Assembly (NCBI RefSeq): GCF_900113605.1
Contig: NZ_FOPY01000003.1
Location: forward strand, 62,001-126,000
Length of the DNA stretch: 64,000 bases
Reading direction: 5' to 3'
DNA from: Modicisalibacter xianhensis
GTDB taxonomy: Bacteria; Pseudomonadota; Gammaproteobacteria; Pseudomonadales; Halomonadaceae
The notes beneath the pieces are model-generated. The model saw only the letters and a list, made by a program, of their open reading frames with translations, was not told the origin of the DNA and made no database searches. The translations under genes and the position numbers were made by a program. Positions 10,349 through 30,025 of the stretch are shown piece after piece (within the stretch, counting starts at the first letter, position 1; every line of letters starts with the position of its first letter).

Positions 10349-10350
10349 GT

Positions 10351-12538: not shown

Positions 12539-12999
12539 TGTGGCTCAGCGAGCAGACTTTCCGGACAGTCATAGCGTCCTCGCCATTGGTTTCCATCGAT
12601 CTCGTGATAAGAAATCGGGAGGGTCGAATCCTTCTGGGGCGGCGGCTGAACCGCCCCGCACAGGAATTCTGGTTTGTTCCGGGAGGGCGCATCCAGAAGA
12701 ACGAGCCACTCGACGAGGCCTTCCTGCGCATAACCAAGTACGAACTCGGTCAATCATTTACACGCCGGCAGGCCAGGCTGATGGGAGTCTACGAGCATTT
12801 TTATCCCGACAGTGTGTTTGGCCCGGAAGGAAAGGCTCCTGACACGCATTATGTCGTGCTGGGCTATACGATGTTCCTGCCCGATGAGTTCAATCTCGTG
12901 CCGCCAGCGTTACAGCATAGCGATTATCGCTGGTGGCGCCGTGACGAGATGCTGGTTTCGCCTGAAGTGCATCAATATGCCCAGGATTATTTAAAATAA
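12538..12999 (+). CDS. gmm: GDP-mannose mannosyl hydrolase (Nudix)
   Basis: It hydrolyses GDP-mannose (and GDP-glucose) to GDP and free sugar, tuning the GDP-sugar supply to fucose synthesis. The 153-residue protein has the modified Nudix box typical of this enzyme (FVPGGRIQKNEPLDEAFLRI, about residues 41-60), the RLNRPAQEFWF stretch that precedes it and a DTHYVVLGY strand. The ATG lies within the wcaI stop (TGATG). A longer frame extends upstream inside wcaI but resembles nothing. In E. coli the order is gmd-fcl-gmm-wcaI; here gmm and wcaI are swapped. Also called wcaH or nudD. Confidence 0.93.
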   Translation: MWLSEQTFRTVIASSPLVSIDLVIRNREGRILLGRRLNRPAQEFWFVPGGRIQKNEPLDEAFLRITKYELGQSFTRRQARLMGVYEHFYPDSVFGPEGKAPDTHYVVLGYTMFLPDEFNLVPPALQHSDYRWWRRDEMLVSPEVHQYAQDYLK

Positions 13000-13104
13000 T
13001 AGCTACACTCTCAAGTTGTCCCTCGGATGTTGTGCCTCTCGAATGGAGAGGTGGGACAACAGCTGCAATGGATGGGGAGTGTAGACAGGCGAGGGGGATG
13101 TCTC

Positions 13105-14337
13105 TTGAATACTTTGTTTATTGCTTTGATTCTGGTGCAATGCGCCGTTCTCATATATCTGGTGTATAAACGTCAGGGGCGGTTTCTTATCGTTTTTCCT
13201 GCCCTGCTGTTCATTTCTGCACTGTATACCTGGATTGGCTGGCGGTTCTTCAGCTTTTCAGTCGACATGCCATTCGACTTCCTCAGGCACGCCAGGGCCG
13301 ATAATGTGGAAAAAGCCATTATCTATTTCATAGTTTGTGCAGGGGCGTTTGCACTGGGCAGTCTTCTGGTAAGAGACAACTCAGCTGCCCGTGCAGGCAC
13401 TGAACTGCCTAACAAGCTGGTCGTGACACTGGGCAATCTGGGGCAGATGCAGTTACTCGCAACGGCGGCGATCTGGTTCGTCGTGTTCATACCTTCCTAC
13501 GGTCTGGACAACTTGTTGCAACGCACCTTGTATCGCCCCGAATTCGCGTTCCAGATTGGCATGGTCATCGCTTCGATCGTCTTGCCTTTTTCCTCGCTGG
13601 CGATCGGTCTGCTCAGGAATCGCTTCGTCCGGATGGCCTTGCTCATTGCCGCCATGTTGATCATCGTGGCGACGAGTTCACGCTCGTCTCTCGTACTGAT
13701 TGCGTTTTACCTGATCGGCACGTTCATGCGTAAAGGCCGGATCGTCAAGACGGAACTCGCGGTGTTTGCTTTTCTCGCCTTGTGGTTGAGCGCATTCGCG
13801 CTGGAGTCACGCCACTTGCCGGTCCAGGGAATCATGCCCAACTTCCTGGCACTGCTGGCCTGGTTCGACATCGACGCGGTGGTCTATACCATCAACTATA
13901 TCCTGTCGTTCTCGGTAGGTGTGCTGACGTATGCCATTGAAATGCCTTATCACCTGGTCAATGTCGTGCCTTATTCGCTGAGCCCGCTGCCCAGTTTCCT
14001 TTACAGCATCCCGGTCACTTTCGACAACCTGATTGGTACGGCGCCCTATAGCGCCATGGCGATTCTCTATAACGAAAGCTACTGGGGCGGGGTGGTCTTC
14101 TTCTTTGTCTGTGGTTTCCTGATTGCCGTCATGGAACGTTATAGCTACCAGAGAAACTTTTTCCTCTGGGTGATTATTTCTTCCTTTATCTTTGTGTTCA
14201 CCATTCTTTGTGTGCAGTATCAACTTCGCTCGGCGGCCCGCCTGGTCTATTACATGATGTTCTTTTCTGCCCTCTATACGTTTGGTATGCCTGTTATCAG
14301 AAAGATGTTTTTTACTGAACGGATTGGGCATGTCTAG
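13105..14337 (+). CDS. wzy: Wzy-like EPS polymerase (multi-spanning membrane protein)
   Basis: A very hydrophobic protein of about 410 residues with ten or more predicted membrane segments, starting with LNTLFIALILVQCAVLIYLVYK. It probably polymerises lipid-linked repeat units at the periplasmic face. Wzy proteins share little sequence, so the call rests on topology, size, the Arg-containing loop segments (RSSLVLIAFYLIG) and position in the cluster, where it is the only such protein. I chose the TTG at 13105: GAGGGGGA lies 6-7 bases before it and the first transmembrane helix begins directly after it. An in-frame ATG at 13072 and an earlier one at 13027 would add a non-conserved polar leader. 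A WcaD-type polymerase or a lipid A-core ligase are alternatives. Confidence 0.75.
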   Translation: MNTLFIALILVQCAVLIYLVYKRQGRFLIVFPALLFISALYTWIGWRFFSFSVDMPFDFLRHARADNVEKAIIYFIVCAGAFALGSLLVRDNSAARAGTELPNKLVVTLGNLGQMQLLATAAIWFVVFIPSYGLDNLLQRTLYRPEFAFQIGMVIASIVLPFSSLAIGLLRNRFVRMALLIAAMLIIVATSSRSSLVLIAFYLIGTFMRKGRIVKTELAVFAFLALWLSAFALESRHLPVQGIMPNFLALLAWFDIDAVVYTINYILSFSVGVLTYAIEMPYHLVNVVPYSLSPLPSFLYSIPVTFDNLIGTAPYSAMAILYNESYWGGVVFFFVCGFLIAVMERYSYQRNFFLWVIISSFIFVFTILCVQYQLRSAARLVYYMMFFSALYTFGMPVIRKMFFTERIGHV

Positions 14338-14360
14338 AAAACCTCTCAAGGCGAACGAGA

Positions 14361-15272
14361 ATGAAAATTGCCTATTGTATTCTGTGCCATAAGGTAACCA
14401 ACCCTCTGAGGTTTACGGTCAACTATCTTTCCCGGTTCGAGGGGAACAGGATTTATATACATGTTGATCGCAAGAGCGACATTGCCCCTTTCGAAGAGGC
14501 CTTTGAGCAAGCAAATGTGACATGGCTCACCGAGCGAATCGATGTCGCATGGGGAAGCGTATCCCAGGTCGATGCCACGCTGGCACTACTCAAGGCAGCG
14601 ACACAGGAGACGTTCGACTACGTTTTCCTCATCTCCGGCGACGATATACCGATCGCCAGTCATGACCAGATACTTGCTTGCCTCGAGCGTCACAAGGGGC
14701 GCGAATTCATTGCTTATCAGGATGAAAGGTTCAACCGTGTCGACCCATGCGAGCGTGTGAAGTACCACTATACAGACATGTTCTTCAAGAAGCGCAAAAC
14801 GCTCATGGAAAGGGTCGGGGCCAAGCTTCATGGAGTTGGATGCAGGCTGGGGTTCTTCAACAACCCGTTCTACAAGACGCTGCCCAGGCTGTACAAGGGA
14901 ACCTCCTGGTTCACCATAAGTCATGGTGCTTCATGTTTCATCCTGAAATATCTGGAAGACTATCCTTATTATCGGCTGGCTTATCAGTATTCCTTCTGTT
15001 GCGACGAAGTCTTTTTTCATACCATACTCAAACAATCGCCATTCAATAGAAATATCATTCGTGACCCAGAATGTTATTCCGATAGTTTGCGTTACATCGA
15101 TTGGAAAACTGGCCCCGATTACCCGAGGACACTGGATGAAAGCGACTTCGCGAACATGAAGTCTAGCGGGATGCTTTTTGCTCGTAAGGTCGACCCGGAT
15201 ATTGATATCGGCTCTCTGGAGTGCTTTATCGATAAAACCAACGAGCATTACAAAGAAAGTCTTTTTGTCTGA
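14361..15272 (+). CDS. GT14 core-2/I-branching-type glycosyltransferase
   Basis: A 303-residue member of the 'Branch' family (beta-1,6-N-acetylglucosaminyl- or xylosyltransferase-like). Signature features are MKIAYCILCHK at the N-terminus, YIHVDRKSD near residue 35, ITWLTERIDVAWGS-like WLTERIDVAWGS near 55 and YVFLISGDDIPI near 90. A CDEVFFHTIL motif near 214 marks the acceptor/catalytic region. It follows wzy by 23 bp. It probably attaches a side branch to the repeat unit; donor and linkage cannot be read from sequence. The C-terminal third has a lower GC content than its neighbours. Confidence 0.85.
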   Translation: MKIAYCILCHKVTNPLRFTVNYLSRFEGNRIYIHVDRKSDIAPFEEAFEQANVTWLTERIDVAWGSVSQVDATLALLKAATQETFDYVFLISGDDIPIASHDQILACLERHKGREFIAYQDERFNRVDPCERVKYHYTDMFFKKRKTLMERVGAKLHGVGCRLGFFNNPFYKTLPRLYKGTSWFTISHGASCFILKYLEDYPYYRLAYQYSFCCDEVFFHTILKQSPFNRNIIRDPECYSDSLRYIDWKTGPDYPRTLDESDFANMKSSGMLFARKVDPDIDIGSLECFIDKTNEHYKESLFV

Positions 15273-15426
15273 ATTCGAAAGTCGGGTGCACTGGCTACCC
15301 AATAACAACGCCAGATGGAAAATATCAATGGATGAGCAGGATCGTTCCTGAAGCGCCTGGCGCTTGAGGCGGCTTGTGATCGATTCCTGTGCCTGCTGGC
15401 TTCTTGTCGATGAAAAGGAATTTACC

Positions 15427-16833
15427 GTGCTGACTCCCGTTATCCTTGCTGGCGGCTCTGGCTCACGCCTGTGGCCGTTGTCACGGAAACTGCGACCCAA
15501 GCAGTTTCTTGCCTTGAATGGCGCTCAGACAATGCTTCAGCAAACACTGGCTCGCCTGAGTGGGCTTGTGTATGGACCGCCCTTGATTATCTGTAATGAG
15601 GAACACCGGTTCCTGGTTGCCGAGCAGCTCCGCCAGGCCGACCAACTCGGGGCGAGCATTCTCCTGGAGCCTGTGGGACGTAATACGGCACCGGCCATTG
15701 CGCTGGCAGCGATGATGGCCTGCGACGAGAACGGTGAAGACCCGCTGTTGCTGGTGTTGTCTGCCGATCACCTGATCGAGGACGTCGCACGTTTCCAGGC
15801 CGCCGTCGAGAATGCAATTCCTTTGGCCGAACAGGGCTATCTGGTGACCTTCGGGGTCGTGCCGACGCGCGCTGAAACCGGCTATGGCTATATCCAGCGA
15901 GGGGAGGGGCTGCTGCAAGGGGAGAAGGTTAAGCGCTTTGCGGAGAAACCGGATGCCGATACGGCAGCCACCTACGTGGCGTCGGGAGAATATTACTGGA
16001 ACAGCGGCATGTTCCTTTTCCGGGCCAGCCGTTATCTGGAAGAGCTTGCCCAGCATGAGCCGGGTATCGTGCAAGCCTGCCAGGCTGCCATCCAGGGCCT
16101 GAACAAGGACTTCGGCTTCCTGCGTGTCGATGCCGACGCATTCGAGATGAGTCCGAATGTCTCCATCGATTACGCCATCATGGAAAAGACCGATCGGGCG
16201 GCCGTGGTGCCTCTTGAGGCCAGTTGGAGCGATATCGGCTCATGGTCATCGTTGTGGGAGGTCAGCGAGCAGGACTCACAAGGCAACTGCCGGCACGGTG
16301 ATGTGCTGACGGTGGAAACCCAGCGCACCCTGATACGCGCCGAAAGTCGGTTGGTCGCCACGGTCGGGGTCGAGGACCTGATGATCGTCGAAACCAAGGA
16401 TGCCGTTCTCGTCGCGCACAGGGACAAGGCGCAACTGGTCAAGCAGGTCGTGGAACGCCTCGAGCGTGAAGGGCGGCCCGAGTACGAGAACCATCGCGAA
16501 GTCTATCGGCCTTGGGGCAAGTACGACTGCATGGGGAAAGGCAGCCGTTATCAGGTCAAGTGCATCACGGTGGCACCCGGAGCGAAGCTGTCCGTGCAGA
16601 TGCATCATCATCGGGCGGAGCACTGGGTCGTCGTTTCCGGGACTGCCGAAGTGACGGCGGGGGACGAGACATTCCTGGTCACGGAAAACGAGTCGACCTA
16701 TATCCCTATCGGCCGTGTCCACGCGTTGAAGAATCCTGGCGTGATTCCTCTGGAGCTGATCGAGGTGCAATCCGGCTCCTACCTGGGCGAGGACGACATC
16801 GTCCGGCTGCAGGACAACTACGGGCGTACCTGA
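15427..16833 (+). CDS. manC: Mannose-1-phosphate guanylyltransferase / mannose-6-phosphate isomerase
   Basis: A bifunctional type II enzyme making GDP-mannose from mannose-1-P and GTP, and interconverting fructose-6-P and mannose-6-P. The N-terminal nucleotidyltransferase begins [16 protein letters not shown] with the KQFLAL motif. [10 protein letters not shown] (near residue 175) and [10 protein letters not shown] follow. The C-terminal cupin isomerase domain has [16 protein letters not shown] (near 395). The GTG at 15427 has AAGGAA six bases upstream and starts the conserved fold at once, so I prefer it to the in-frame start at 15364. It feeds gmd. A phosphomannomutase (ManB/CpsG) is absent from the cluster and must be supplied elsewhere. 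Confidence 0.95.
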
Positions 16834-16891
16834 ACACGCCATTCGACGCATGGCACTAATGACAATCAGGGATGTGACGCAAGGGCAGGCT

Positions 16892-18316
16892 ATGGATACC
16901 TTAACGAAGAAACCTCTTGTGCTCGAGCAGAGCAGCAGGGACATTTCCCGACAATCATCGACCAGCTTCGGTTCCCTGATGAGGATCATGGACTTCTCAT
17001 TGATGATCGGGGGCATGCTGGTCATCGGCAGGTACCAGTCGGAAACCGTTGGCCTGGAGTGGTTGCTGCTTTATGGCTGTATCGGCTGGATTCTCTACCA
17101 TGCCGGGGCCAGTTATCTGAATTTTTACGGTTCGTGGCGTGTCTTCTCATTGCTGCGCGAGCTGACACATGTCGCGCTGATATGGTTCATTGCCTTCAGT
17201 TGCGTCGCTCTCACGGCCTTGCTGCTTTTCGACGACGAAACCCACGTGCGCGATGTGATACTGCCCTGGGGCGTGGTCGTTGCCACCGGCATGCTGAGCT
17301 ATCGCAGTCTGGTTCGCCTGTTTCTCCATCGCCTGCGTGAATTGGGCATCAATAACCATAACGTGGCGATCGTGGGCTGTGGGCCTTCGGCCGAACGCCT
17401 GAAGAAAGGCTTCGAGTCCGCCCCGTGGATGGGATTCCGTGTCGTGGGCCAGTTCGACAAGTCGCAGGTGGCCAACGGGGCCAGTGAAACGCTGGACGTC
17501 CAGGAAATGATACATCTGGCGCACAGTGGCCAGATCGACCGGACCTACGTGACCTGGGAGATGAGCCGCGAAGCGGATATCCGGCAATTGATCGAGGCCT
17601 TGGCTGACACCACGGTATCGCTTTACCTGATACCCGATCTGCTGGTGTCCGACCTGATGTACTCCCGGGTCGAGCCCATCAACGACGTGATAACGGTCAG
17701 TATCTACGATACGCCAGTCTATGGGCCGACAGGTTCATTGAAGCGTATCGAGGATATCGTGCTGAGCTTGGCGATACTGGGGATCGTATCATTGCCCATG
17801 CTCGTGATCGCCTTGGCCGTCAAGCTCACGTCGCCAGGGCCGGTACTTTTCAAGCAGACACGCTATGGACTCGATGGACGCCCTATCAGGGTCTACAAGT
17901 TTCGTACCATGAAGGTCATGGAAGATGGCGATGTCGTTACCCAGGCAACCCGAAGCGACAAGCGCCTGACACCGGTGGGCGGCTTTTTGCGCCGTACATC
18001 CCTCGACGAGCTTCCCCAGTTCATCAATGTCCTGCAGGGGCGGATGTCCATCGTCGGCCCGCGACCCCACGCAGTGGCCCACAACGAACAGTATCGTGGC
18101 CTGATCCATGGCTACATGCTGCGTCACAAGGTCAAGCCGGGCATTACCGGATGGGCACAAATCAATGGCTGGCGCGGTGAAACCGATACCTTGGAGAAGA
18201 TGCAAAAACGCGTCGAACTCGATCACGACTATATACGCCACTGGAGCCTGGCCTTCGATCTCAAGATCATTCTGCTGACGGTTTTTAGGGGGTTTGTCGA
18301 TAAAAACGCGTATTGA
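16892..18316 (+). CDS. wcaJ: Undecaprenyl-phosphate glucose-1-phosphate transferase WcaJ
   Basis: The priming glycosyltransferase: it transfers glucose-1-P from UDP-glucose to undecaprenyl phosphate at the inner membrane. The N-terminal half has four to five membrane segments and a CoA-binding-like Rossmann portion (NVAIVGCGPSAERL, near residue 155). The C-terminal polyprenyl phosphotransferase half carries SPGPVLFKQTRYGLDGRPI, VYKFRTMKV, RRTSLDELPQFINVL and GPRPHAVAHNEQYR and resembles E. coli WcaJ nearly continuously to its end. The ATG at 16892 follows AAGGG by six bases; 16850 and 16859 are alternative in-frame starts. It indicates that glucose is the first sugar of the repeat unit. Confidence 0.95.
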   Translation: MDTLTKKPLVLEQSSRDISRQSSTSFGSLMRIMDFSLMIGGMLVIGRYQSETVGLEWLLLYGCIGWILYHAGASYLNFYGSWRVFSLLRELTHVALIWFIAFSCVALTALLLFDDETHVRDVILPWGVVVATGMLSYRSLVRLFLHRLRELGINNHNVAIVGCGPSAERLKKGFESAPWMGFRVVGQFDKSQVANGASETLDVQEMIHLAHSGQIDRTYVTWEMSREADIRQLIEALADTTVSLYLIPDLLVSDLMYSRVEPINDVITVSIYDTPVYGPTGSLKRIEDIVLSLAILGIVSLPMLVIALAVKLTSPGPVLFKQTRYGLDGRPIRVYKFRTMKVMEDGDVVTQATRSDKRLTPVGGFLRRTSLDELPQFINVLQGRMSIVGPRPHAVAHNEQYRGLIHGYMLRHKVKPGITGWAQINGWRGETDTLEKMQKRVELDHDYIRHWSLAFDLKIILLTVFRGFVDKNAY

Positions 18317-18373: not shown

Positions 18374-19450
18374 ATGAAAATACTAATTACAGGTGGGGCT
18401 GGCTTCATTGGCTCTGCAGTGATCCGGCATATTATTGAAACGACGCAGGATGATGTCGTCAACTTGGACAAGTTGACTTATGCAGGCAATCTGGACTCCT
18501 TGGCAGGTGTGGTCGCCAACCCACGCTATCAATTCGAAAGAGAAGATATCTGTGATGGCGACGCGCTTCGGCGGGTTTTCGCCCGGCATCAGCCGGATGC
18601 CGTCATGCATCTGGCGGCGGAAAGCCATGTGGACCGTTCCATCGAGGGGCCTGCCGCCTTTGTCCAGACCAACATCGTGGGCACCTATCAGTTGCTGGAG
18701 GTGGCAACCCGGTACTGGCAGGAGCTACCGGCCTCCCGCCAGGCACACTTTCGTTTCCACCATGTCTCCACGGATGAGGTGTATGGGGATTTGGGTGGGA
18801 CGGACGCACTGTTTACCGAGCAGACCGCCTATTGTCCCAGTTCGCCCTATTCGGCCACCAAGGCAAGTTCCGACCATCTGGTGCGTGCCTGGCACAGGAC
18901 GTTCGGCCTACCGGTCGTCGTGACGTCCTGCTCCAACAATTACGGCCCTTGCCAGTTTCCGGAAAAATTGATTCCCCTGATGATACTCAATGCCCTCGAG
19001 GGCAAGGCCTTGCCGGTTTATGGCAAGGGCGAGCAAATCAGGGACTGGCTCTATGTCGAAGATCATGCGCGAGCGTTATATACCGTACTGACACGGGGAG
19101 GCAACGGAGACACTTATAATATCGGCGGATTTAACGAGAAAAAGAACATTGAAGTCGTTTATACGCTCTGTGAGTTACTGGAAGAACTTGCGCCGTCGAA
19201 GCCTGGGCATGTCCGCTACTACAGCGACCTGGTGTCCTTCGTCGAGGATCGACCAGGGCATGACCTGCGTTATGCCATCGATGCGGGAAAACTCCAACGC
19301 GAACTCGGCTGGATGCCTCTCGAGACCTTTTACTCGGGCATCCGCAAGACCGTGACGTGGTACTTGCAGAATATTGAGTGGTGCCGGCGTATTCACGACG
19401 GCAGCTATCGGCGTGAAAGACGGGGTCTGGGCAGCAGGGAGGTAGCATGA
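18374..19450 (+). CDS. rmlB: dTDP-glucose 4,6-dehydratase
   Basis: It converts dTDP-glucose to dTDP-4-keto-6-deoxyglucose. N-terminal NAD-binding motif [24 protein letters not shown], the catalytic STDEVYGDL region and [10 protein letters not shown] (YxxxK) are all intact; 358 residues is typical. The ATG at 18374 replaces an upstream in-frame start at 18359 because the fold begins at MKILITGG. The stop overlaps the rmlA start (ATGA). In many strains the gene is followed by rmlD and rmlC for rhamnose; here it is followed by rmlA and an aminotransferase, pointing to an amino sugar instead. Also called rfbB. Confidence 0.96.
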
Positions 19451-20313
19451 AGGGAATCATTCTCGCCGGGGGAAGCGGAACCCGGTTATACCCAATCACG
19501 ATGGGTACGTGTAAGCAGCTTCTACCCATCTACGACAAACCGATGATTTATTACCCGCTCTCCTTGCTCATGCTGGCAGGTATCCGGGACATCCTGATTA
19601 TCGTCAACCCGACCGATGAAGAGCGATTCCGAGATTTGCTCGGCGATGGCAGCCAGTACGGGATCTCGCTCAGCTATGCCATACAGCCCCGGCCAGAAGG
19701 GCTGGCCCAGGCGTTCATCATTGGTGAAGACTTCATCGGCGACGAAACGGTGTGTTTGGTCCTGGGCGACAATATCTTTTACGGACAAGGATTCACCGAA
19801 AAGCTCAGGAGTGCGGCTGCATTGAAGAAAGGAGCGTGCCTCTTCGGCTACCAGGTGAAGGATCCGGAAAGGTTCGGTGTCGTCGAGTTCGACGAGGAAA
19901 ACCGTGTTCTCTCCATTGAGGAGAAGCCGGCCAGGCCCCGTTCGAACTACGCAGTCACCGGGCTTTACTTCTACGACAACGATGTCGTCGACATCGCCAA
20001 GCAGGTCACGCCATCAAGCCGTGGCGAGCTGGAAATCACCAGCGTCAATCAAGCGTATCTGGAGCGGGGCGATCTGAGCGTTGACCTGCTGGGGCGTGGC
20101 TATGCCTGGTTGGATACCGGGACGCACGAGAGCCTGCTCGAAGCGGGCATGTTCGTTCAGACCATTGAGCGCCGCCAAGGGCTGAAGATCTGCTGCCCCG
20201 AGGAGATCGCCTTCAACAATGGCTGGCTGACGACAGAGCAGGTCATTCGGGCTGGGGATTGCCTGGCCAAGAACGGCTACGGCCAATATCTGCTGAAGGT
20301 GGCGACATCATGA
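19447..20313 (+). CDS. rmlA: Glucose-1-phosphate thymidylyltransferase
   Basis: It makes dTDP-glucose from glucose-1-P and dTTP. The 288-residue enzyme has the full signature [20 protein letters not shown] at the N-terminus, [27 protein letters not shown] (near residue 108), [20 protein letters not shown] and [13 protein letters not shown] (near residue 220). It overlaps rmlB at its start (ATGA) and the following aminotransferase at its end (ATGA), so the three form one translationally coupled dTDP-sugar unit. Also called rfbA. Confidence 0.96.
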
Positions 20314-21404
20314 TACCCGTGACGAGACCTTACCTGCCCGATCGTGAGAAGCTCCAGTGTTACATCGACGGTATCTATGCCCGTCAATACCTGACCAATA
20401 ACGGTCCGTTGGTACAGGAGCTGACCCGTCGCCTCGAAAACTACCTGGGCGTCGAGAATCTCCTGCTGGTCAGCAATGGCACCCTGGCGTTGCAGATTGC
20501 CTACCGAGCATTAGGCATCTCGGGTCAGGCGCATGGGGAGCGCGTCGAAGCCATTACCACACCCTTCAGTTTCGCGGCCACGGCCAGCTCGCTCAAGTGG
20601 GAGGGGGTCGAGCCGGTGTTCGGCGATATCGATCCCGACACATGGTGCCTGGATCCAGCTTCCATCGAGCCCGCCCTGACGACCTGTACGCGGGCCATCG
20701 TGCCGGTTCATGTCTTCGGCAACGCTTGTGAAGTCGAAGCCATTGAAGCGATTGCCCGCCGGCACCGGTTAAAGGTGATCTATGACGGTGCCCATGCCTT
20801 CGGCGTGACGTACCGGGATCGAAGCCTACTGGTTCATGGGGATGCCACGACGTTGAGTTTCCATGCCACCAAGCTGTTTCACACCGTGGAGGGCGGGGCC
20901 ATTATCTTCAAGCACAAGGAGGATCTCGAACGGGCAGCCCTGCTCATCAACTTCGGCATTTCGGGGCCCGACAAGATCGATACGCTGGGCATCAATGCCA
21001 AGATGAATGAATTCCAGGCCGCGATGGGGCTTTGCGTACTGGATGAAATCGAGGCCAATCTCAAGGAAAGGGAAGCCATCTGGCGGCTTTATGCCTACGC
21101 CCTGGGCAATCATTATCAAATGCAGCGACTCAATAGCCACTCTCGCTATAACTACGCCTACTTTCCTGTGGCCTGCCGCGATGAAAAGGAGCTGTTACGC
21201 GAAGTCGATCGTCTGGCTCGTGCCGAGATACAGGTACGGCGTTATTTCTACCCCTCCCTGGATCAGGTCCAGGCATTCTCCGACAGGAAAACGCACTCGA
21301 TATCGGACGATCTGGCACGGCGGGTCATGTGCCTGCCCGTGTACCAAGGATTGGATGCCGGCATCGTACTCCAGCAATTATCGAGCATCAGTGAGGTTGC
21401 CTAA
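20310..21404 (+). CDS. DegT/DnrJ/EryC1 sugar aminotransferase, VioA-like
   Basis: A PLP-dependent aminotransferase of 364 residues that probably converts dTDP-4-keto-6-deoxyglucose to a dTDP-4-amino-4,6-dideoxyhexose. The N-terminus ([28 protein letters not shown]), [28 protein letters not shown] and the PLP-lysine motif [16 protein letters not shown] resemble the VioA/FdtB group of dTDP-sugar aminotransferases rather than the longer WecE type. It is fused by ATGA overlap to rmlA and by TAATG to the ABC flippase gene. Whether the product is the 4-amino gluco or galacto isomer, or a 3-amino sugar, cannot be decided from sequence. No acetyltransferase partner follows. Confidence 0.85.
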
Positions 21405-23206
21405 TGTTTTACCACTTGAAAGAACTCTATTCCCTGCTGAGCAAGGAGCAGCGCAGGAAGTTTTTTCGCCTGCAACTTCTCGCCGTTATCATGGCGTTTG
21501 CTGAAATCGCCGGTGTCATCTCGATCGGCCCCTTCATGGCGCTTGTCGGCAACATGGACCAACTGGAAGGGCAAGGAATGCTGGCCGACGTGTATCGTGC
21601 CAGCGGCGTCGCGAGCCCTGAAATCTTCCTGATCTGGGTCGGTGGCGGTGTACTGGCCGTCCTGCTGCTGTCCGGCATGTTCTCGATGTATACCATCTGG
21701 CAGATGTCGATGTACGGGGCTCGCGTCGGGGCGGAGCTGAGCAGTCGCCTGTACAACTACTACATGCATCAGAATTGGCTGTTCCATGCCAGTGGCAACA
21801 GCAGCACCTTGACCAATCGCATCGCCGAAGAATGTCAGCGGGTGATGATGCACATCATCATTCCGTTGATGCACATGAATGCAAAGCTGACCCTGGCCAT
21901 ATTCATGACACTGGCGATTTTCGTCTACAACCCGATCGTGGCGCTAGCGGGCGCCGGTGTGTTCCTGGCCTCATACTTTCTGCTTTTCAAGACGGTCAGG
22001 CGTCGTTTGGTCAACAATGGAAAGATCATTTCCCGTTCGCAGACGATTCGTTTCAAGTTGATGGCAGAAGGATTTGGTGGCATCAAGGACGCCCTGTTGC
22101 TCAGGCGACAGGATGTTTTCACGAAACGCTTCAATGATGCCAGCGACAGATATGCCAATGCCTTGGGGGCCAACCAGGCATTGAGTCTGGCTCCTCGCTA
22201 TGCGATGGAAATCGTGGCATTCGGCTGTGTCATATTCCTCGTGCTTTATCTTCTGGCGAGCAGCGGCGGCAATGTCGTGAGCCTGCTGCCGGTCTTGTCC
22301 ATCTATGCCCTGGCGGGTTTCAAGATTCTGCCGGCCCTGCAACAGGTCTATAACAGCCTCTCGCAGATCCGTGGGCATATGTCCGCGTACGAATCGATTC
22401 GTGAAGAGCTGAAGGCTAGTGCACATAGCCCCGCCGTCAGTGTGGATTACTCCGCCAAGCAGAAAAAATTGACGCCGAGGCAGGACATTGTCCTCCAGGG
22501 TATCGGTTTCACTTATCCGGGCAAGGTGGATAAAGCCCTGGATGAGGTGGATCTGCGAATTCCCGTCAATCGCACTGTGGGGCTGGTAGGAGCGTCGGGC
22601 TCGGGCAAGTCCACGCTGGTGGATATCTTGCTGGGACTCATCGAGCCGGATCAAGGAGGTATTGTCGTCGATGGACAGCTCCTGACCAGAGACGCCTTGG
22701 GTGACTGGCAAAATGCATTGGGCTTCGTGCCGCAAAGCATTTTCCTGGCTGATGCCAGTATCAAGGAGAACATCGCTTTTGGCCTTCCCGAAGAAGCCAT
22801 CGATATGCAGCGTGTACACGACTGCGCCAAACAAGCGCATCTCGATGAGTTCCTCGACAAGCTTCCTGAAGGTCTGGACACCCGTGTTGGTGAGAGAGGG
22901 GTCCAACTGTCCGGTGGGCAGCGTCAGCGAATCGGTATTGCGCGTGCGCTCTACCATGACTCGGACGTGCTGGTACTAGACGAAGCAACCAGTGCACTGG
23001 ATGGCATTACCGAAAGCCATATCATGCAGGCGATCCAGAGTTTTTCTGGTCAGAAAACAATCGTCATGATCGCGCACCGACTGGCAACGGTAAAACAATG
23101 CGACCTGATCTACTTGATGAGGGATGGGAAAGTCGTGGATCAGGGGCGCTATGAAGAACTGGTCGTAAGAAATGAAATATTCAAGCGCATGGCGGAACAC
23201 GCCTAG
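21404..23206 (+). CDS. PglK-type ABC transporter, probable lipid-linked saccharide flippase
   Basis: A 600-residue half-transporter with six N-terminal membrane helices and a C-terminal ATPase. Walker A is GASGSGKST (about residue 397), the signature is LSGGQRQR (about 504) and Walker B is VLVLDEATSALD (about 522). The membrane half (FAEIAGVISIGPFMALVGN, GFGGIKDALLLRRQ, FKILPALQQVYNSLSQIR) resembles PglK-like proteins, which flip undecaprenyl-diphosphate-linked glycans. No Wzx is present, so this protein is the likely flippase of the cluster. Alternatives are an MsbA-like lipid exporter or a peptide exporter. It starts within the previous stop (TAATG) and ends at a strong terminator. Confidence 0.85.
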   Translation: MFYHLKELYSLLSKEQRRKFFRLQLLAVIMAFAEIAGVISIGPFMALVGNMDQLEGQGMLADVYRASGVASPEIFLIWVGGGVLAVLLLSGMFSMYTIWQMSMYGARVGAELSSRLYNYYMHQNWLFHASGNSSTLTNRIAEECQRVMMHIIIPLMHMNAKLTLAIFMTLAIFVYNPIVALAGAGVFLASYFLLFKTVRRRLVNNGKIISRSQTIRFKLMAEGFGGIKDALLLRRQDVFTKRFNDASDRYANALGANQALSLAPRYAMEIVAFGCVIFLVLYLLASSGGNVVSLLPVLSIYALAGFKILPALQQVYNSLSQIRGHMSAYESIREELKASAHSPAVSVDYSAKQKKLTPRQDIVLQGIGFTYPGKVDKALDEVDLRIPVNRTVGLVGASGSGKSTLVDILLGLIEPDQGGIVVDGQLLTRDALGDWQNALGFVPQSIFLADASIKENIAFGLPEEAIDMQRVHDCAKQAHLDEFLDKLPEGLDTRVGERGVQLSGGQRQRIGIARALYHDSDVLVLDEATSALDGITESHIMQAIQSFSGQKTIVMIAHRLATVKQCDLIYLMRDGKVVDQGRYEELVVRNEIFKRMAEHA

Positions 23207-23224
23207 CCTCACATGATAATAACT

Positions 23225-23256
23225 AAAAAAATGGCCGACTAGTCGGCCATTTTTTG
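23225..23256 (+). terminator. Strong intrinsic terminator after the ABC flippase gene
   Basis: A perfect inverted repeat, TGGCCGAC-TA-GTCGGCCA (23232-23249), is flanked by seven A residues and six T residues, the classic bidirectional intrinsic terminator form. It lies 25 bp after the flippase stop and about 60 bp before the first ATP-grasp gene, separating the GC-rich core operon from the AT-richer downstream unit. Confidence 0.9.
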
Positions 23257-23307
23257 AATGAGCGATTGTTTTGATTTTTAGCGACATGGAATTAACGCCA
23301 AGGGAAT

Positions 23308-24507
23308 ATGATGAAGAAGATTCTTTTCTTGGGGGCTTCAAGAATACAGCTCCCCCCAATCCAGTACGCAGTAGAGAATGGCTACTATGTGATAACCTGT
23401 GATTACTTGCCAGATAATCCTGGTCATCAACTGGCGAATGAGTATCACAATATATCTACAAGAGACAAAGACGCTGTGCTTCGCATGGCAAGGAAGGCCG
23501 GAATTGATGGCGTGGTAGCCTATGCTGCTGATTCGGCTGCGCCTACGGTAGCCTATGTTGCCGAAAAGTTAGGGTTGCCGGGAAATCCCTATGAGTCGGT
23601 AACCATCTTGACCCGAAAAGATCTTTTCAGGAACTTTTTAAAGGCTAACGGATTCAATGCTCCCCGCTCAAATTCCTTCGATAGCCTGGAAGAAGCAGAG
23701 GAGTGGTTAAGAATTATTGGCGCTCCTGCGTATGTCAAGCCCGTTGACTCATCGGCAAGTATCGGGAATACACTATTAACCTCCGCGAGTGATCTCCCCG
23801 CCGCGTTTGAACATGCCATGAAACACTCATCGGCACGTCGCGTGGTCGTTGAAGAAGTCATTGAGAAAGCCGGCTATCAAATTGATAGCGACGTTTTCAT
23901 GGAAAAGGGAGAGTTGAAGTATTGGCTGTGGGCCAACGCGCATTTCGATTACAAATGTAGTCCTCCCATTGAGATTGCCAATAGCTATCCTGCGACATTA
24001 AAAAAAGAAGTGGGTGAAAAGGCAAAAAGTGAGCTTGAAAAGATATTTCGGTTATTGAACTGCAGGACAGGGGCGTTTAACGTAGAATTTCTCGTGGATT
24101 CTAACGAAGAGATATGGTTCCTGGAAGTGGCACCTAGAAACGGAGGAAGCAGGATCCCTGAGCTGATAAAGTATGCAACCAATAACGACATGGTAAAGGC
24201 AATCGTCGATACTGCGGTCGGTCTGGATAGCCAACTGGTACATGTGGATTCACCAATAGGCTATTGGTCGAATTATACAATACATTCTCTTGAGGATGGT
24301 GTGTTAAAAGACATTTGGATGTCGAACAGGCTCAAGTCGAAGATAGTAGAAAAACAAATATGGTCGCAGCCTGGCGACTTTGTACGTAAGTCCAGGGGAG
24401 GGATTGATGACTTGGGGGAGATGATACTTAGATTCGATGATGCCAGCGAAATGGTAAGCATGCTTGATGATATGAATAAGGATATCAAGGTTAACGTTGA
24501 TATTTAA
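23308..24507 (+). CDS. ATP-grasp ligase 1 of a tandem paralogous pair
   Basis: A 399-residue ATP-grasp enzyme, expected to join a carboxylate (commonly an amino acid) to an amine through an acyl phosphate. The N-terminal domain starts KILFLGASRIQLPPI and contains GVVAYAADSAAP. The ATP-grasp core has AYVKPVDSSASIGNT (about residue 140), VVVEEVIEKAGYQ (about 180), GAFNVEFLVD (about 255) and the metal-binding WFLEVAPRNGG (about 270). AAGGGA precedes the ATG. Context (a dTDP-amino-sugar pathway just upstream) suggests it acylates a sugar amine on the EPS; substrate is not recognisable. GC content is lower than in the operon upstream. Confidence 0.85.
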   Translation: MMKKILFLGASRIQLPPIQYAVENGYYVITCDYLPDNPGHQLANEYHNISTRDKDAVLRMARKAGIDGVVAYAADSAAPTVAYVAEKLGLPGNPYESVTILTRKDLFRNFLKANGFNAPRSNSFDSLEEAEEWLRIIGAPAYVKPVDSSASIGNTLLTSASDLPAAFEHAMKHSSARRVVVEEVIEKAGYQIDSDVFMEKGELKYWLWANAHFDYKCSPPIEIANSYPATLKKEVGEKAKSELEKIFRLLNCRTGAFNVEFLVDSNEEIWFLEVAPRNGGSRIPELIKYATNNDMVKAIVDTAVGLDSQLVHVDSPIGYWSNYTIHSLEDGVLKDIWMSNRLKSKIVEKQIWSQPGDFVRKSRGGIDDLGEMILRFDDASEMVSMLDDMNKDIKVNVDI

Positions 24508-24572
24508 AGTGTTATCAGAATAAAGATTCTTCCCGGTCGTCAGGCCTGCCTGTTGTATAGCCAAGGAAAGAT

Positions 24573-25811
24573 ATGAAAACCATCCTCTTTTTGGGCGCTT
24601 CGTCTACCCAGGTACCCCCTATCGTTTATGCTGTAGAGCAAGGTTATCATATTCTAACTTGTGATAATCGTCCAAGTAATCCGGGGCATAGGCTTGCGCA
24701 TGAAAGCTATGATATATCAACGACAAACAAGGAAAAGGTTCTTGAGCTGGCTGCAAGCAGAAACATTGACGGCATCGTGGCTTATGCATCGGATCCTGCT
24801 GCGCCTACCGCAGCTTTTGTAGCAGAGCGGTTAGGGCTGCCGGGTAATCCTTACGAATCGGTGCTCACTCTATCCCAGAAAGACAGGTTTCGTGAGTTCT
24901 TGCAGAGAAATGATTTCAATACGCCGAGGTCCCGCTCATTCCAAGACCAGGCAGAAGCGCAAGAATGGCTGGAACAGCTTGATCTCCCTGTGTATGTGAA
25001 ACCCATCGATTCTTCAGGAGGAAAAGGGATAACTGTTCTAGAGGATAAGGATGGTTTCGCAGACGCCTTCGCTCATGCCATGAATTTTTCCCTTGAAAAA
25101 AAAGTTGTCGTTGAAGAAAAGATACGCGGCAAGGTCGGCTATCAGAACGACAGTGATGTATTCATGGTCAACGGAAAGCTCAGATTCTGGATATGGGGCG
25201 ACAGCCATTTCAATCATGCCTGTAGCCCGCCTTTTCAGGCGGCAAGCAGCTATCCCGGTTCTCTCGAAACAAGGTTGGAAAAAAAAGTATGTCAGGAACT
25301 TGAGCGTTTGCTTGGGCTCTTGAACTTCAGGTCTGGCGCTTTCAATGTGGAATTCCTGATCGATGCCAGTGATGAAATATGGTTCTTGGAAGTCGGGGCA
25401 AGAAATGGTGGGGGAGGCACGGTTGACGCTATCAAGTTTGCCTCTGGCGTCGATATGGCAAAATATACCGTCGATGCTGCCTTGGGGGGAGATTGCTCTT
25501 CGCTGAAAAACAGGAAAACATCGGGGTATTGGGCAGAATGTCTTGTTCACTCGCTGGTTTCGGGGGAATTGGAGAGCCTGGATTTCTCTGATGAGCTGGC
25601 GGGTAAAGTTTTCCAAAAGACCATTTGGACTAACCCGGGTGATTTGATCTACAAGGCGACTGGGTCAAATCATGCCTTGGGCATGATGATACTCAAGTTT
25701 GAAAGCCGGGAAGAAATGAATCGTATGCTTGATGATATATCTTCACATATCTTCGTGAAGGTTAGATCCGGTGTGATGATGGGGCAGGAAACTGCTGCTT
25801 TACCTGCTTAG
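24573..25811 (+). CDS. ATP-grasp ligase 2 of a tandem paralogous pair
   Basis: A 412-residue paralogue of the preceding gene along its full length, with the same N-terminal pattern (TILFLGASSTQVPPI, GIVAYASDPAAP) and an intact ATP-grasp core: VYVKPIDSSGGKGITVL (a more canonical glycine-rich loop than in the first copy), VVVEEKIRGKVGYQ, GAFNVEFLID and WFLEVGARNGGGG. A short tail after the core (VMMGQETAALPA) is extra. AAGGAAAG precedes the ATG and the gap from copy 1 is 65 bp. The two copies may act in sequence or on different amino acids. A peptide ligase or biotin-carboxylase-like role is the main alternative. Confidence 0.85.
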   Translation: MKTILFLGASSTQVPPIVYAVEQGYHILTCDNRPSNPGHRLAHESYDISTTNKEKVLELAASRNIDGIVAYASDPAAPTAAFVAERLGLPGNPYESVLTLSQKDRFREFLQRNDFNTPRSRSFQDQAEAQEWLEQLDLPVYVKPIDSSGGKGITVLEDKDGFADAFAHAMNFSLEKKVVVEEKIRGKVGYQNDSDVFMVNGKLRFWIWGDSHFNHACSPPFQAASSYPGSLETRLEKKVCQELERLLGLLNFRSGAFNVEFLIDASDEIWFLEVGARNGGGGTVDAIKFASGVDMAKYTVDAALGGDCSSLKNRKTSGYWAECLVHSLVSGELESLDFSDELAGKVFQKTIWTNPGDLIYKATGSNHALGMMILKFESREEMNRMLDDISSHIFVKVRSGVMMGQETAALPA

Positions 25812-25878
25812 TGGCTTGGTTTGTATTGCTTTTTATTCCAAGGGCTCTATCTGGTAGTGTGAATTTCAGGTGGGTAAA

Positions 25879-26847
25879 ATGAAGAGTGAAAATAATAACT
25901 TTGAGGTGATGGTTAGTGTGTGCTGTACTGCTTTCAATCACGCAAACTATATCGCAGATGCCTTGGAGGGTTTCATCAAGCAGAGCGTGGATTTTCCGAT
26001 TGAGATCCTCGTTCACGATGATGCATCTACCGACGGTACTCAGGAAGTAATCCTTGAGTACGAGAAGCGATACCCACATTTAATTAAAGCGATATGCCAA
26101 AAGAAAAACCAGCATTCGCAAGGACGTTACGCCTTTGCTCATATTCTCTATCCGATGGCTAGAGGAAAGTATATTGCCTTCTGCGATGGCGATGATTATT
26201 GGACAGACCCTTTGAAGTTGAAAAAGCAAGTCGAGTTCCTGGAAAATAATCCTGATTACGTGATCTGCGGGCATGATGCTTACGTAATCAACGAGTCCGG
26301 CATCGTTAGCACTTCAAAACTTCCCGATGTGCATAAGAGAGATGCTGTTTCCCGGCAGCTCCAAAAGAACCGCGACATCCTTACTTTATCTATATGTTTC
26401 AGGAATTTAAGAGTGCCGATTCCCGAAGAGTATAGTAATGTCATGAATGGTGATGCGTTTCTTTTCTCTTGGCTAGGCAATTTTGGCCATTACAAATATA
26501 TGGATGATATCAAGCCGGGGGCCTACCGGGTACATGCAGGGGGAATGTGGTCGTTGCTTGACATGAAGGAGAAAAAAGTCAATTCAATGGTCACTTATTA
26601 CTGGTTGGCACAATATTACAAAAGTATGGGTTCTCATGATATTGCCTTCTATCATCTGACTCAGGCGGTATACATAGCTGTCGATGAGCTGTGCATCTTG
26701 GGAATAAAAAGGGTTTTATTGCTGAATTGCGTTCTTTTTAAGGCAATGGCGCAAAAAAGCGTGCCGCGCTCATTTGCTTTTCTTCGCTCACTGAGAAACC
26801 GTTTGTTCTACAAGAACGATCTCATTAGCAAACACGAATACCATTAA
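25879..26847 (+). CDS. Family 2 glycosyltransferase
   Basis: A 322-residue GT-A enzyme with MVSVCCTAFNHANYIADALEGF, VHDDASTDGTQEVI and the acidic AFCDGDDYWTDPLKL motif near residue 97, which places it with the GT2 family of polysaccharide glycosyltransferases. The C-terminal region has an amphipathic segment (CILGIKRVLLLNCVLFK) that may tether it to the membrane. AGGTGGG precedes the ATG at 25879 by four bases; the GTG at 25870 is an alternative. It follows the second ATP-grasp gene and precedes the first zinc-ribbon gene by 13 bp. Codon use is AT-richer than in the main EPS operon. Donor unknown. Confidence 0.85.
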   Translation: MKSENNNFEVMVSVCCTAFNHANYIADALEGFIKQSVDFPIEILVHDDASTDGTQEVILEYEKRYPHLIKAICQKKNQHSQGRYAFAHILYPMARGKYIAFCDGDDYWTDPLKLKKQVEFLENNPDYVICGHDAYVINESGIVSTSKLPDVHKRDAVSRQLQKNRDILTLSICFRNLRVPIPEEYSNVMNGDAFLFSWLGNFGHYKYMDDIKPGAYRVHAGGMWSLLDMKEKKVNSMVTYYWLAQYYKSMGSHDIAFYHLTQAVYIAVDELCILGIKRVLLLNCVLFKAMAQKSVPRSFAFLRSLRNRLFYKNDLISKHEYH

Positions 26848-27851: not shown

Positions 27852-28333
27852 GCTTCCCTCCGTTTTCAGTGTTACCTACCTCCATCGGCTGCCTGGAGAA
27901 AAACTTGAATGTCCCGTGTTTTCCGAGCGGCTGTCTGGCTGGAGGCATTCTATCCTGAGCCCGACCTGTCCCCGCAGTAATTTCGTACTCAGCCTAGATG
28001 CTTAGGAAAGTCATTTCACTTCATAAGGTTACGATAAGCCCCTTTGAGGTTGAAAATGCGTTTAGGTTTGTTTCTAATGTCTTTAGCGTAGTCAGTTGGT
28101 AATAAAAAGTAATTTTGTCTACGCTGAGCGTTACAAAAACACTTGTCCTCTAGGGAAGGGAGAATGAGATGCGTCAGGGAACGACGGGTAGAGAAAATTA
28201 CACACCCTATGGGCCGCTTGATCGAGCGACCGCCCTATCCTCCGTAGCCGTGCCTCAGCAGTGAGCTGAGCGCTATCTGATACCTGTCTATTCAAGCCGA
28301 TCGGTGTCGTTACCGGCCGGCAGCGGAGGAGTC
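27852..28333. other. Non-coding region upstream of the two-partner secretion operon
   Basis: About 480 bp separating the small minus-strand gene from tpsB. The middle (28000-28140) is AT-rich and probably contains the tpsBA promoter. A 31-codon frame starting at an ATG near 28170 with a GGGAAGGGAG-like upstream stretch is visible, but nothing else supports it. I could not assign operators. Confidence 0.5.
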
Positions 28334-29965
28334 ATGCCTTTTGTTCACTTATTGGCGCCTAAGCTTGGCGTCATGGCGTTATTTTGCTGTTCAGTCGGTG
28401 TCGCTTGTCTACTGGGAGACCCGTCGTATGCCTTGGCCGACGACAAGTCTGCCATCAACGGCGATGGACGTGGGGCGCCGAACCAAGAGACGACACTTGC
28501 CGTCAGGTTTTCCGGTGTCGAACTCATTGGCAATTCGCTGTACTCGGACCAGCGTCTCACCAGGCTGATTGCCAGCGATATGGCCAAGCCGCTGACGTTT
28601 ACCGACGTGCAAGCCCTGGCAGCCAGAATAGAGACGTACTATCGCAAAAACGGTTATGACCTGGCGCGGGTTATCGTGCCCGAGCAAGCGTTTCGTGAGG
28701 GCAAGGCATTAGAACTCGTCGTACTGGAAGGGCGGCTAGGCACCATCGAGATCCGAGGCAACACTCGCTATCCGGACCGCTACATCATCGATACGCTGGA
28801 AACCTCTGGCCTCGAGCGTACACGGGCGTTTTCGCTCGGCGACGTCGAGCGTGGCCTGGCCCTGATCAATCGGCGTTCAGGCGTCGAAGTCAGCTCGACG
28901 TTACGCCCCGGTGAGGTACAGGGCGCGACCGACCTGGTCGTCGATGTCGATGAGCAGTCACGTATCACCGGGGCGCTGGAGGCCAACAATTATGGCAGCG
29001 AAAACAGCGGCAAATACCGCCTGGTGCCGGCACTTAGCCTGTTGAACGCGACGGGACATGGAGACCAGCTAGATATCCTGGGCATGAAATCGCTGGGCGA
29101 TGGTGATGCCTATTTCGGCTACCTGGGCTATGAGACGCCTATCAATGCAGAGGGCACCAAGGCCCATGTCTACGGCTTTTCAGGCAACGTCGCCATTGGC
29201 CAGGACTTCAGGGTGCTGGAAATCGAGGGGGATAGTGAAGGCTGGGGCGTCGGGCTTTCGCATGATGTTGTCGTGTCCAGTCAATCCATCGTCAATGTCG
29301 GAGCCTGGCTGGAGGGGCAGGATCTCGAGCAGTCGATGCTCGGCATCACGACATCCAAGGACCGCGTGCGCAAGGTCCGCCTGGGGGTCAGTATCGACAG
29401 CACCGACCTGCAGGGACGCACCTTGTTGTCTCTCGATGTACACCAGGGGTTGGGCGATCGACTGGGCGGGATGGATGACGATGCATTGCTGTCTAGCCGC
29501 AGCTATGCCAGGGCCGACAACGATTTCACCAAGCTGACCTTCGACCTGGCGCGACTGCAACGCCTCAATGAACGCTGGTTAGTGGTGCCTCGTCTCTATG
29601 GACAGTATGCGTTCGACTCGCTGGTGGCTGGCGAACAATGGGCTGTCGGTGGCTTTCATTCCGTGCTGGGGCATCCAGCATCGGCGTTCTCCGGCGACAG
29701 TGGCTATACCGCTTCCGTCGAAGGCCGTTATTCCCTTCTCGGAGAGGATCGCTATCAGTTGATTGTGCGCGCAGACCATGGCCGCGTGTTCGTCAGACAG
29801 CCCTATCTTGGCCAGGCCGATGACCGCGACATCTCCGGGGCCGGGCTGGGCCTGCGTGCGCAGCCGTGGGAAAGCCTCGAGCTACGTGTCGATTACGGCG
29901 TGCCCATCGGCAGCGAAACGGGTGACGACGCCTACTGGTACGGTCAGGCCAGTTACCGCTTCTGA
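28334..29965 (+). CDS. TpsB two-partner secretion transporter (ShlB/FhaC/HecB family)
   Basis: An outer-membrane beta-barrel of the Omp85 superfamily that secretes its partner TpsA. The start at 28334 follows GGAGGA; the in-frame GTG at 28304 is less likely. A signal peptide runs to about residue 36 (SYALADD). A POTRA_2 domain follows (VRFSGVELIGNSLYSDQRL to LVVLEGRLGTIEI, residues 55-140), then the ShlB-type second POTRA (TRYPDRYIIDTLETSGL), and a barrel from about residue 210 (ITGALEANNYGSENSGKYR) ending in a C-terminal Phe (YGQASYRF). The barrel contains VGGFHSVLGHPASAFSGDSGY, a form of the conserved VRG-type L6 motif region. tpsA begins 61 bp downstream. Confidence 0.92.
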   Translation: MPFVHLLAPKLGVMALFCCSVGVACLLGDPSYALADDKSAINGDGRGAPNQETTLAVRFSGVELIGNSLYSDQRLTRLIASDMAKPLTFTDVQALAARIETYYRKNGYDLARVIVPEQAFREGKALELVVLEGRLGTIEIRGNTRYPDRYIIDTLETSGLERTRAFSLGDVERGLALINRRSGVEVSSTLRPGEVQGATDLVVDVDEQSRITGALEANNYGSENSGKYRLVPALSLLNATGHGDQLDILGMKSLGDGDAYFGYLGYETPINAEGTKAHVYGFSGNVAIGQDFRVLEIEGDSEGWGVGLSHDVVVSSQSIVNVGAWLEGQDLEQSMLGITTSKDRVRKVRLGVSIDSTDLQGRTLLSLDVHQGLGDRLGGMDDDALLSSRSYARADNDFTKLTFDLARLQRLNERWLVVPRLYGQYAFDSLVAGEQWAVGGFHSVLGHPASAFSGDSGYTASVEGRYSLLGEDRYQLIVRADHGRVFVRQPYLGQADDRDISGAGLGLRAQPWESLELRVDYGVPIGSETGDDAYWYGQASYRF

Positions 29966-30025
29966 CGGTGGCTCGTGTGGTTTGGCCGGGCCAGGGATAA
30001 CAAGTCTCAGGGAACGAAAAAGGAT

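Follow-up and report, generated by a model that had tools for sequence, protein, structure and literature searches.

Aminoacylated amino sugars are known in several polysaccharides, and the module that yields N-acetylglycyl 4-amino-4,6-dideoxyglucose, or Qui4N(GlyAc), in Escherichia coli O121 is shared with Shigella dysenteriae 7. A listing in PMC3210612 includes Qui4N with an N-acetylglycyl group, citing the E. coli O121 structure, and Qui4N with a two-part 3-hydroxybutyryl-alanyl group, cited to Hafnia alvei 1205. Ligation of an amino acid to a cell-surface amino sugar has been discussed for another system (PMC2922099), and a paper on Acinetobacter K loci lists vioAB modules together with one alanine transferase, the term 'ATP-grasp' being absent from its main text (PMC9676051). 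Here we describe an exopolysaccharide (EPS) operon of the salt-loving bacterium Modicisalibacter xianhensis in which genes for a deoxythymidine diphosphate (dTDP)-linked amino sugar are followed by two ATP-grasp ligases, AG1 and AG2. The operon lies in a 64-kb window (the whole stretch analysed, positions 62001-126000 of contig C30) of a 4.36-Mb genome in 45 contigs. We consider it an even call that AG2 attaches an acyl group, most likely aminoacyl, to dTDP-Qui4N and that AG1 adds a second residue. Our literature search found no characterised ATP-grasp ligase that forms an amide on Qui4N; the idea is known in outline, and what we did not find in print is the ligase family, its link to Qui4N, and the tandem.

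An amino-sugar module followed by two ATP-grasp ligases

The operon runs on the plus strand in the order wza, wzc, two glycosyltransferases, gmd, fcl, a WcaI-like GT4, nudix, a Wzy-like gene, GT14, manC, wcaJ, rmlB, rmlA, a sugar aminotransferase (AT), an ABC transporter, AG1, AG2 and a family 2 glycosyltransferase (GT2). Its amino-sugar module opens with rmlB (18374-19450), encoding a dTDP-glucose 4,6-dehydratase (TIGR01181, 494.5 bits against a cut-off of 365.1), and rmlA (19447-20313), encoding a glucose-1-phosphate thymidylyltransferase (TIGR01207, 506.6 bits against 360.65). The AT gene (20310-21404; PF01041, 1.2e-82) specifies a DegT/DnrJ/EryC1/StrS sugar aminotransferase that is a probable dTDP-Qui4N synthase of the VioA/DesI type. 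AG1 (23308-24507) and AG2 (24573-25811) are both assigned through Pfam ATP-grasp-type matches, structure models and Foldseek, with trees in addition marking AG2 as the orthologue of the single AG in the EPS operon of Halomonas sp. McH1-25 (L020); GT2 (25870-26847; PF00535, 2.1e-21) lies downstream of AG2. A first-pass annotation, made from the letters of this DNA, had placed the module at 19447-25811, and open frames for rmlA, AT, AG1 and AG2 are found there, all on the plus strand; rmlB begins just before that region, and the annotation made no mention of the ABC transporter (21404-23206) between AT and AG1.

That annotation had proposed a dTDP-4-amino-4,6-dideoxyhexose pathway, which holds up insofar as RmlA and RmlB exceed their cut-offs and the best NCBIfam match of AT is DesI, a dTDP-4-dehydro-6-deoxyglucose aminotransferase (252.8 bits, under the cut-off of 650). 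PseC (175.5 bits), a LegC-type model (170.1) and two WecE-type models (163.2 and 127.6) score lower, all under cut-off, and the closest PDB entry by sequence is 2po3 (2.5e-48). Going by this sub-cut-off best match, the sugar is probably Qui4N rather than Fuc4N. Rhamnose was set aside as an unlikely product of rmlAB because the genome has no RmlD above cut-off (best 62.4 bits against 224.05).

As the same annotation had it, the two ligases are full-length paralogues, 52% identical over 397 residues (E 5e-152), and they are the sole strong family members in their own genome, the five other matches having E values of 1e-5 or weaker. AlphaFold2 models (pLDDT 94.7 for AG1 and 94.0 for AG2) were both matched by Foldseek to 4dim at the top, then to the L-amino-acid ligases 3vot and BacD, with TMq 0.79-0.82 for AG2 and 0.81-0.84 for AG1; PurT and biotin carboxylases come next in the ranking, so the fold by itself is no proof of an amino acid substrate. 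ATP-grasp enzymes are marked by an ATP-binding lysine, acidic metal ligands and an arginine. In a motif comparison of 40 chosen AG rows, K143, E273 and R277 are retained in both AG1 and AG2, whose models both match ATP-grasp enzymes, and the motif around E273, R277, G279 and G280 is likewise kept and aligns with that of the L-amino-acid ligase BL00235. The LAL_C2 domain scores 21.7 and 23.7 bits for the two proteins, below the Pfam gathering score of 29.4.

The cluster was also said to contain no N-acetyltransferase, and for the GNAT, hexapeptide and formyl transferase families tested this is borne out across the 64 kb: PF13302, PF00583, PF00132 and PF00551 have no match in the window (7, 18, 21 and 4 genome-wide, respectively), the PF00132 result also covering a VioB-type hexapeptide acetyltransferase. 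A six-frame search of the window with hidden Markov models (HMMs) of the GNAT, NeuD-like and WbqC proteins associated with AG genes elsewhere gave no match at 1e-5, and so found none of the WbqC and GNAT beside the aminotransferase that an O121-type module would require.

The ligase family and its gene neighbourhoods

At least 435 relatives of the two ligases were gathered from species genomes, among 595 stretches, and neighbourhoods were worked out for the best 80 of the 435. The context table holds 78 of these 80 loci; L024 and L043, where greedy gene calling lost the AG frame, lie outside it, and in both AT precedes AG. As a null, genes were shuffled inside each locus 1000 times; the 80 loci are mutually related and several lie on short contigs, so the counts are non-independent and the shuffles overstate significance.

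The survey, which the first-pass annotation had called for, found AT within 1, 2, 3 and 5 genes of AG in 33, 50, 56 and 63 of the 78 loci. No shuffle reached the count for adjacent AT (33 against a shuffled mean of 9.7) or for AT within two genes (50 against 18.6). Also enriched within two genes of AG, again at levels reached by none of the shuffles, were GNATs (28 loci; mean 8.5), WbqC (10; mean 3.5) and an unnamed protein of about 320 residues (24; mean 7.9), and an amino-acid-type aminotransferase adjoined AG in 16 loci (mean 2.8, 0/1000). The GNATs and the amino-acid-type aminotransferase fit an amino acid substrate. Closeness alone, however, fails to single out acylation genes, because Wzx is clearly enriched within two genes too (20 against 10.1, 0/1000). 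GT2 within two genes is slightly enriched (30 against 22.5, reached by 24 of 1000 shuffles), and there is no excess of adjacent GT2 (7 against 12.6) or adjacent RmlA (0 against 3.4).

Several gene orders recur: AT-AG-GNAT-wzx (L023, L029, L032, L034), AT-AG-unnamed-GNAT (L022, L026, L027, L031, L048, L058, L096), and amino-acid aminotransferase-AG-GNAT, found in nine loci with a first GNAT type and in one with a second. From the one member of each type that was scanned, the first resembles RimI and the second PseH, a sugar N-acetyltransferase, both below cut-off; capping of an amino acid is therefore not a given for every GNAT beside AG. The unnamed proteins (about 320-335 residues) stand beside AG in 22 of the 78 loci (for example L022:11154-12152, L027:11154-12146, L031:11136-12146 and L033:11188-12150). 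A scanned member matched nothing in Pfam or NCBIfam at 0.001, nor did a four-row profile match any PDB entry at 0.01; by eye, the motifs are like those of DegT-type pyridoxal phosphate enzymes. Some loci (L052, L061, L068, L097 and others) carry WbqC as well as AG, and there two acyl-adding steps might be consecutive.

The E. coli RM8082 O121 cluster is ordered rfbB (rmlB), rfbA (rmlA), AT, WbqC, GNAT, wzx, GT2, and Acinetobacter ANC 4648 has rmlB-rmlA-AT-AG-GNAT-wzx-GT2. The parts correspond: the O121 AT shares 58-62% identity with the six AG-locus proteins that match it best (41.7% with the window AT), the O121 GNAT scores 128 bits against the model of the first AG-linked GNAT type, and the O121 wzx reaches about 59% identity with wzx from AG loci; the window and O121 GT2 proteins share 38% over 131 residues. 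The O121 WbqC gene (L121:14076-14792) occupies the same slot as AG in L023, and six-frame searching of 22 kb found no AG in the O121 cluster. A distant-mode search of E. coli DNA with the Acinetobacter AG gene found no homologue. Because O121, with its N-acetylglycyl-Qui4N, has WbqC where AG loci have AG, the position of AG suggests that it is likely in the aminoacyl-adding slot, ahead of an enzyme expected to acetylate the added amino acid.

At 1e-50, relatives turned up in 6 of the 275 genomes of the family and 7 of the 369 of the class (the M. xianhensis genome counted in both), and among these only M. xianhensis and G098 have two AGs. Trees were built from 60 of 95 AG rows and from 31 chosen rows; neither includes L008, L009, L011 or L013, which duplicate L020, L021 and L025. 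In both trees a single halomonad clade holds AG1, AG2, both AGs of L021 and the AGs of McH1-25, L025 and G100 (support 100/97 with 60 rows, 100/99 with 31); AG2 groups with the McH1-25 protein and AG1 sits on a long branch. A recent tandem duplication, with AG1 and AG2 as sisters, was rejected by the approximately unbiased (AU) test (p 0.000236); AG1 as sister to the L021b/L025/G100 group was not (p 0.196). With sisterhood rejected, AG1 and AG2 are old paralogues and the tandem is no fresh copy. Base composition suggests a different origin for AG1, AG2 and GT2 than for the rest, since the G+C fraction drops from 0.55-0.57 across rmlB to the ABC transporter to 0.45, 0.48 and 0.43; the AG and GT2 of McH1-25 are likewise G+C-poor (0.47 and 0.41). 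There are overlaps of 4, 4 and 1 nucleotides at rmlB/rmlA, rmlA/AT and AT/ABC and gaps of 101, 65 and 58 nucleotides ahead of AG1, AG2 and GT2.

A second AG is adjacent in only 3 of the 78 loci (L021, L086, L090) and within five genes in 15, often as a distant relative. The first-pass annotation knew of no characterised cluster with exactly this arrangement; AT with one AG proves widespread, and McH1-25 shows this order with a single AG, so what is rare is the tandem of two close paralogues. Relatives on plasmids come to seven records, six from Brachyspira and one from Bacteroides (36-37% identical), and two loci lie on viral contigs (34% and 28% identical).

A proposed acylation route and its alternatives

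From the genes, their order, the folds, the co-occurrence observed and the absence of the acyltransferases tested, we infer the substrates, the acceptor and the order of the two steps in the following route. RmlA, RmlB and AT would make dTDP-Qui4N; AG2 would use ATP to activate a carboxylic acid, most likely an amino acid, as an acyl phosphate and couple it to the 4-amine of dTDP-Qui4N; AG1 would add a second residue, an amino acid or a hydroxy acid, onto the first, where some loci would use a GNAT cap; and the downstream GT2 would transfer the acylated Qui4N into the EPS repeat. Attachment of an amino acid had been the first annotator's simplest reading, and the survey, the O121 slot and the L-amino-acid ligase folds speak for it; the two-residue chain also raised then is possible and unproven. 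In its stronger form, in which two dedicated ATP-grasps build a two-residue chain, peptide- or depsipeptide-like, on a nucleotide sugar with no need of transfer RNA, coenzyme A or carrier protein and as an unrelated replacement for the O121 WbqC and GNAT route, we hold the proposal only tentatively. The intact frame of AG1, the absence of a recent sister relationship between AG1 and AG2, and the two-part 3-hydroxybutyryl-alanyl chain known on Qui4N count in favour of the route.

Several observations weigh against the route, beside the relatedness of the surveyed loci. No substrate demonstrated for any family member was found in the literature. AT falls under every curated cut-off and shares only 41.7% identity with its O121 counterpart. 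The ATP loop of AG1 reads SSASIG, with G149A and K151I, where all 39 other rows keep G149 and 37 of the 39 keep K151. The McH1-25 operon lacks AG1, its genome holding one match; in two halomonads (L025/L112 and L111) the 19-21 kb surrounding AG contain no AT; and the rmlB-rmlA-AT set of the L021 genome (its AT 60% identical to that of the window) is separated from the AG pair by about 15-17 kb. Across the family, 31 of the 78 loci are devoid of GNAT, NeuD-like and WbqC genes alike up to five genes from AG, and the halomonad stretches (L020, L021, L025, L109-L112) lack GNAT, NeuD-like, WbqC, unnamed and amino-acid aminotransferase genes altogether, so the argument from GNAT, WbqC and the O121 slot reaches the window only via the family. 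Halomonad AGs also depart from those of GNAT loci in that DSDVF replaces AGDGF and NVEF replaces NFDF; because of these motif differences and the missing companion genes, the halomonad enzymes may use another acid than the GNAT-linked members.

The alternative that survives best, though we think it rather unlikely, has AG1 and AG2 acting on the same sugar amine with different acids, to give a mixed single acyl residue, or forming a heteromer with one catalytic subunit. Their 52% identity and shared fold would suit it, as would the motif differences between AG1 and AG2 and the single AG of McH1-25; keeping two genes for one bond would, however, be unusual. Close behind and also unlikely is a non-amino-acid carboxylate on Qui4N, such as hydroxybutyrate, malate or pyroglutamate. 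Unlike many AG loci, the window and the other halomonad stretches have no GNAT, amino-acid aminotransferase or WbqC match, the motif residues diverge in the halomonad group, and hydroxy-acyl Qui4N is known (PMC3210612), but the nearest solved ligases of known function take amino acids.

We regard as improbable a different acceptor for AG1, for instance amide ligation to a uronic acid or to a further amino sugar within the repeat: the paralogue is old and ATP-grasp substrates vary widely, yet neither a second sugar aminotransferase nor a uronic acid dehydrogenase was recognised among the scanned operon proteins. That AG1 is inactive or regulatory, as G149A, K151I and its long branch might indicate, seems the least probable, and a plainly dead AG1 was not upheld, given a frame intact at 48% divergence, the retained K143, E273 and R277 positions, 13 departures at conserved columns in AG1 as in AG2, and S and Q at loop columns 149 and 151 of BL00235 itself.

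Operon surroundings and known systems

The ABC transporter between AT and AG1 is a 600-residue protein with fused membrane and ATPase parts (PF00664, PF00005); it is PglK/MsbA-like, with PglK the best NCBIfam match (310 bits, under the cut-off of 1000), and its gene has the same position in McH1-25, with 86% identity. A Wzx-cluster HMM has no match in the window, and the genome's only PF01943 match lies at C30:48946, about 12-13 kb ahead of it. The transporter may serve as the flippase of this Wza/Wzc-type EPS operon. The window GT2 falls in the same GT2 cluster as those from AG loci, is 67% identical to the McH1-25 GT2 and is a candidate transferase for the modified sugar.

The stretch from gmd to wcaJ (9227-18316, plus strand) was assigned from Pfam and NCBIfam, the Wzy-like match being weak (24.4 bits against a cut-off of 40); gmd and fcl both exceed curated cut-offs, and fucose is therefore likely in the polymer. 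An AT3-SGNH acyltransferase lies at 8-1588 of the window; such enzymes usually O-acylate. Ahead of the window (L109:14587-18393, C30:56587-60393) are a glucose-1-phosphate cytidylyltransferase gene above cut-off and epimerase-like, oxidoreductase-like and RmlC-like genes named by eye, the RmlC-like one with no NCBIfam match at 1e-60; the group perhaps makes another sugar of the same polymer. After the operon come two large genes (28304-32284) that by eye look like a two-partner secretion pair, an outer-membrane transporter and a filamentous exoprotein, and on the minus strand (32366-34225) a 619-residue protein with features, by eye, of a parallel beta-helix and calcium-binding repeats. McH1-25 has a gene of like size and look (L020, 13227-15083), and the protein is possibly an EPS lyase or epimerase.

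The survey yields a widespread candidate family, with at least 435 relatives, and a testable acceptor, dTDP-Qui4N. The match to the O121 slot carries a prediction for WbqC as well: WbqC and AG would be unrelated solutions to one step. Should AG1 and AG2 work in series, the pair would amount to a small assembly line of two enzymes that builds a peptide on a nucleotide sugar.

Set beside solved structures, the ligases come closest, by sequence and by Foldseek rank, to 4dim, the 'phosphoribosylglycinamide synthetase' of Anaerococcus prevotii (about 21% identity), a structural genomics entry for which, to our knowledge, no function has been demonstrated. The L-amino-acid ligases BL00235 (3vot), BacD/YwfE (3vmm) and RizA (4wd3), which make free dipeptides, share the whole-length fold (TMq 0.75-0.82 for AG2), and BL00235 has the E/R/GG motif in common with AG1 and AG2; they are, however, only 15-20% identical to AG2, and the LAL_C2 match of the AGs stays under the Pfam cut-off. 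The E. coli O121 module, like the window, combines rmlB, rmlA, a sugar aminotransferase, an acyl-adding step and a GT2, but it does so with WbqC, GNAT and Wzx and no ATP-grasp, where the window has two ATP-grasps and an ABC transporter without WbqC or GNAT. CA_C2189 of Clostridium acetobutylicum, described as an 'ATP-grasp amino acyl ligase', is also an ATP-grasp in a predicted surface-polysaccharide cluster, and the same account suggests for a neighbouring gene the transfer of a peptide or glutamine onto an amino sugar; that cluster differs in its neuraminate-synthase-like gene, and the likeness drawn here is one of description (PMC4000134). The closest relative is Halomonas sp. McH1-25, whose operon has an identical order from wzy to GT2 and proteins 64-87% identical to those of the window, but carries one ATP-grasp where the window has two.

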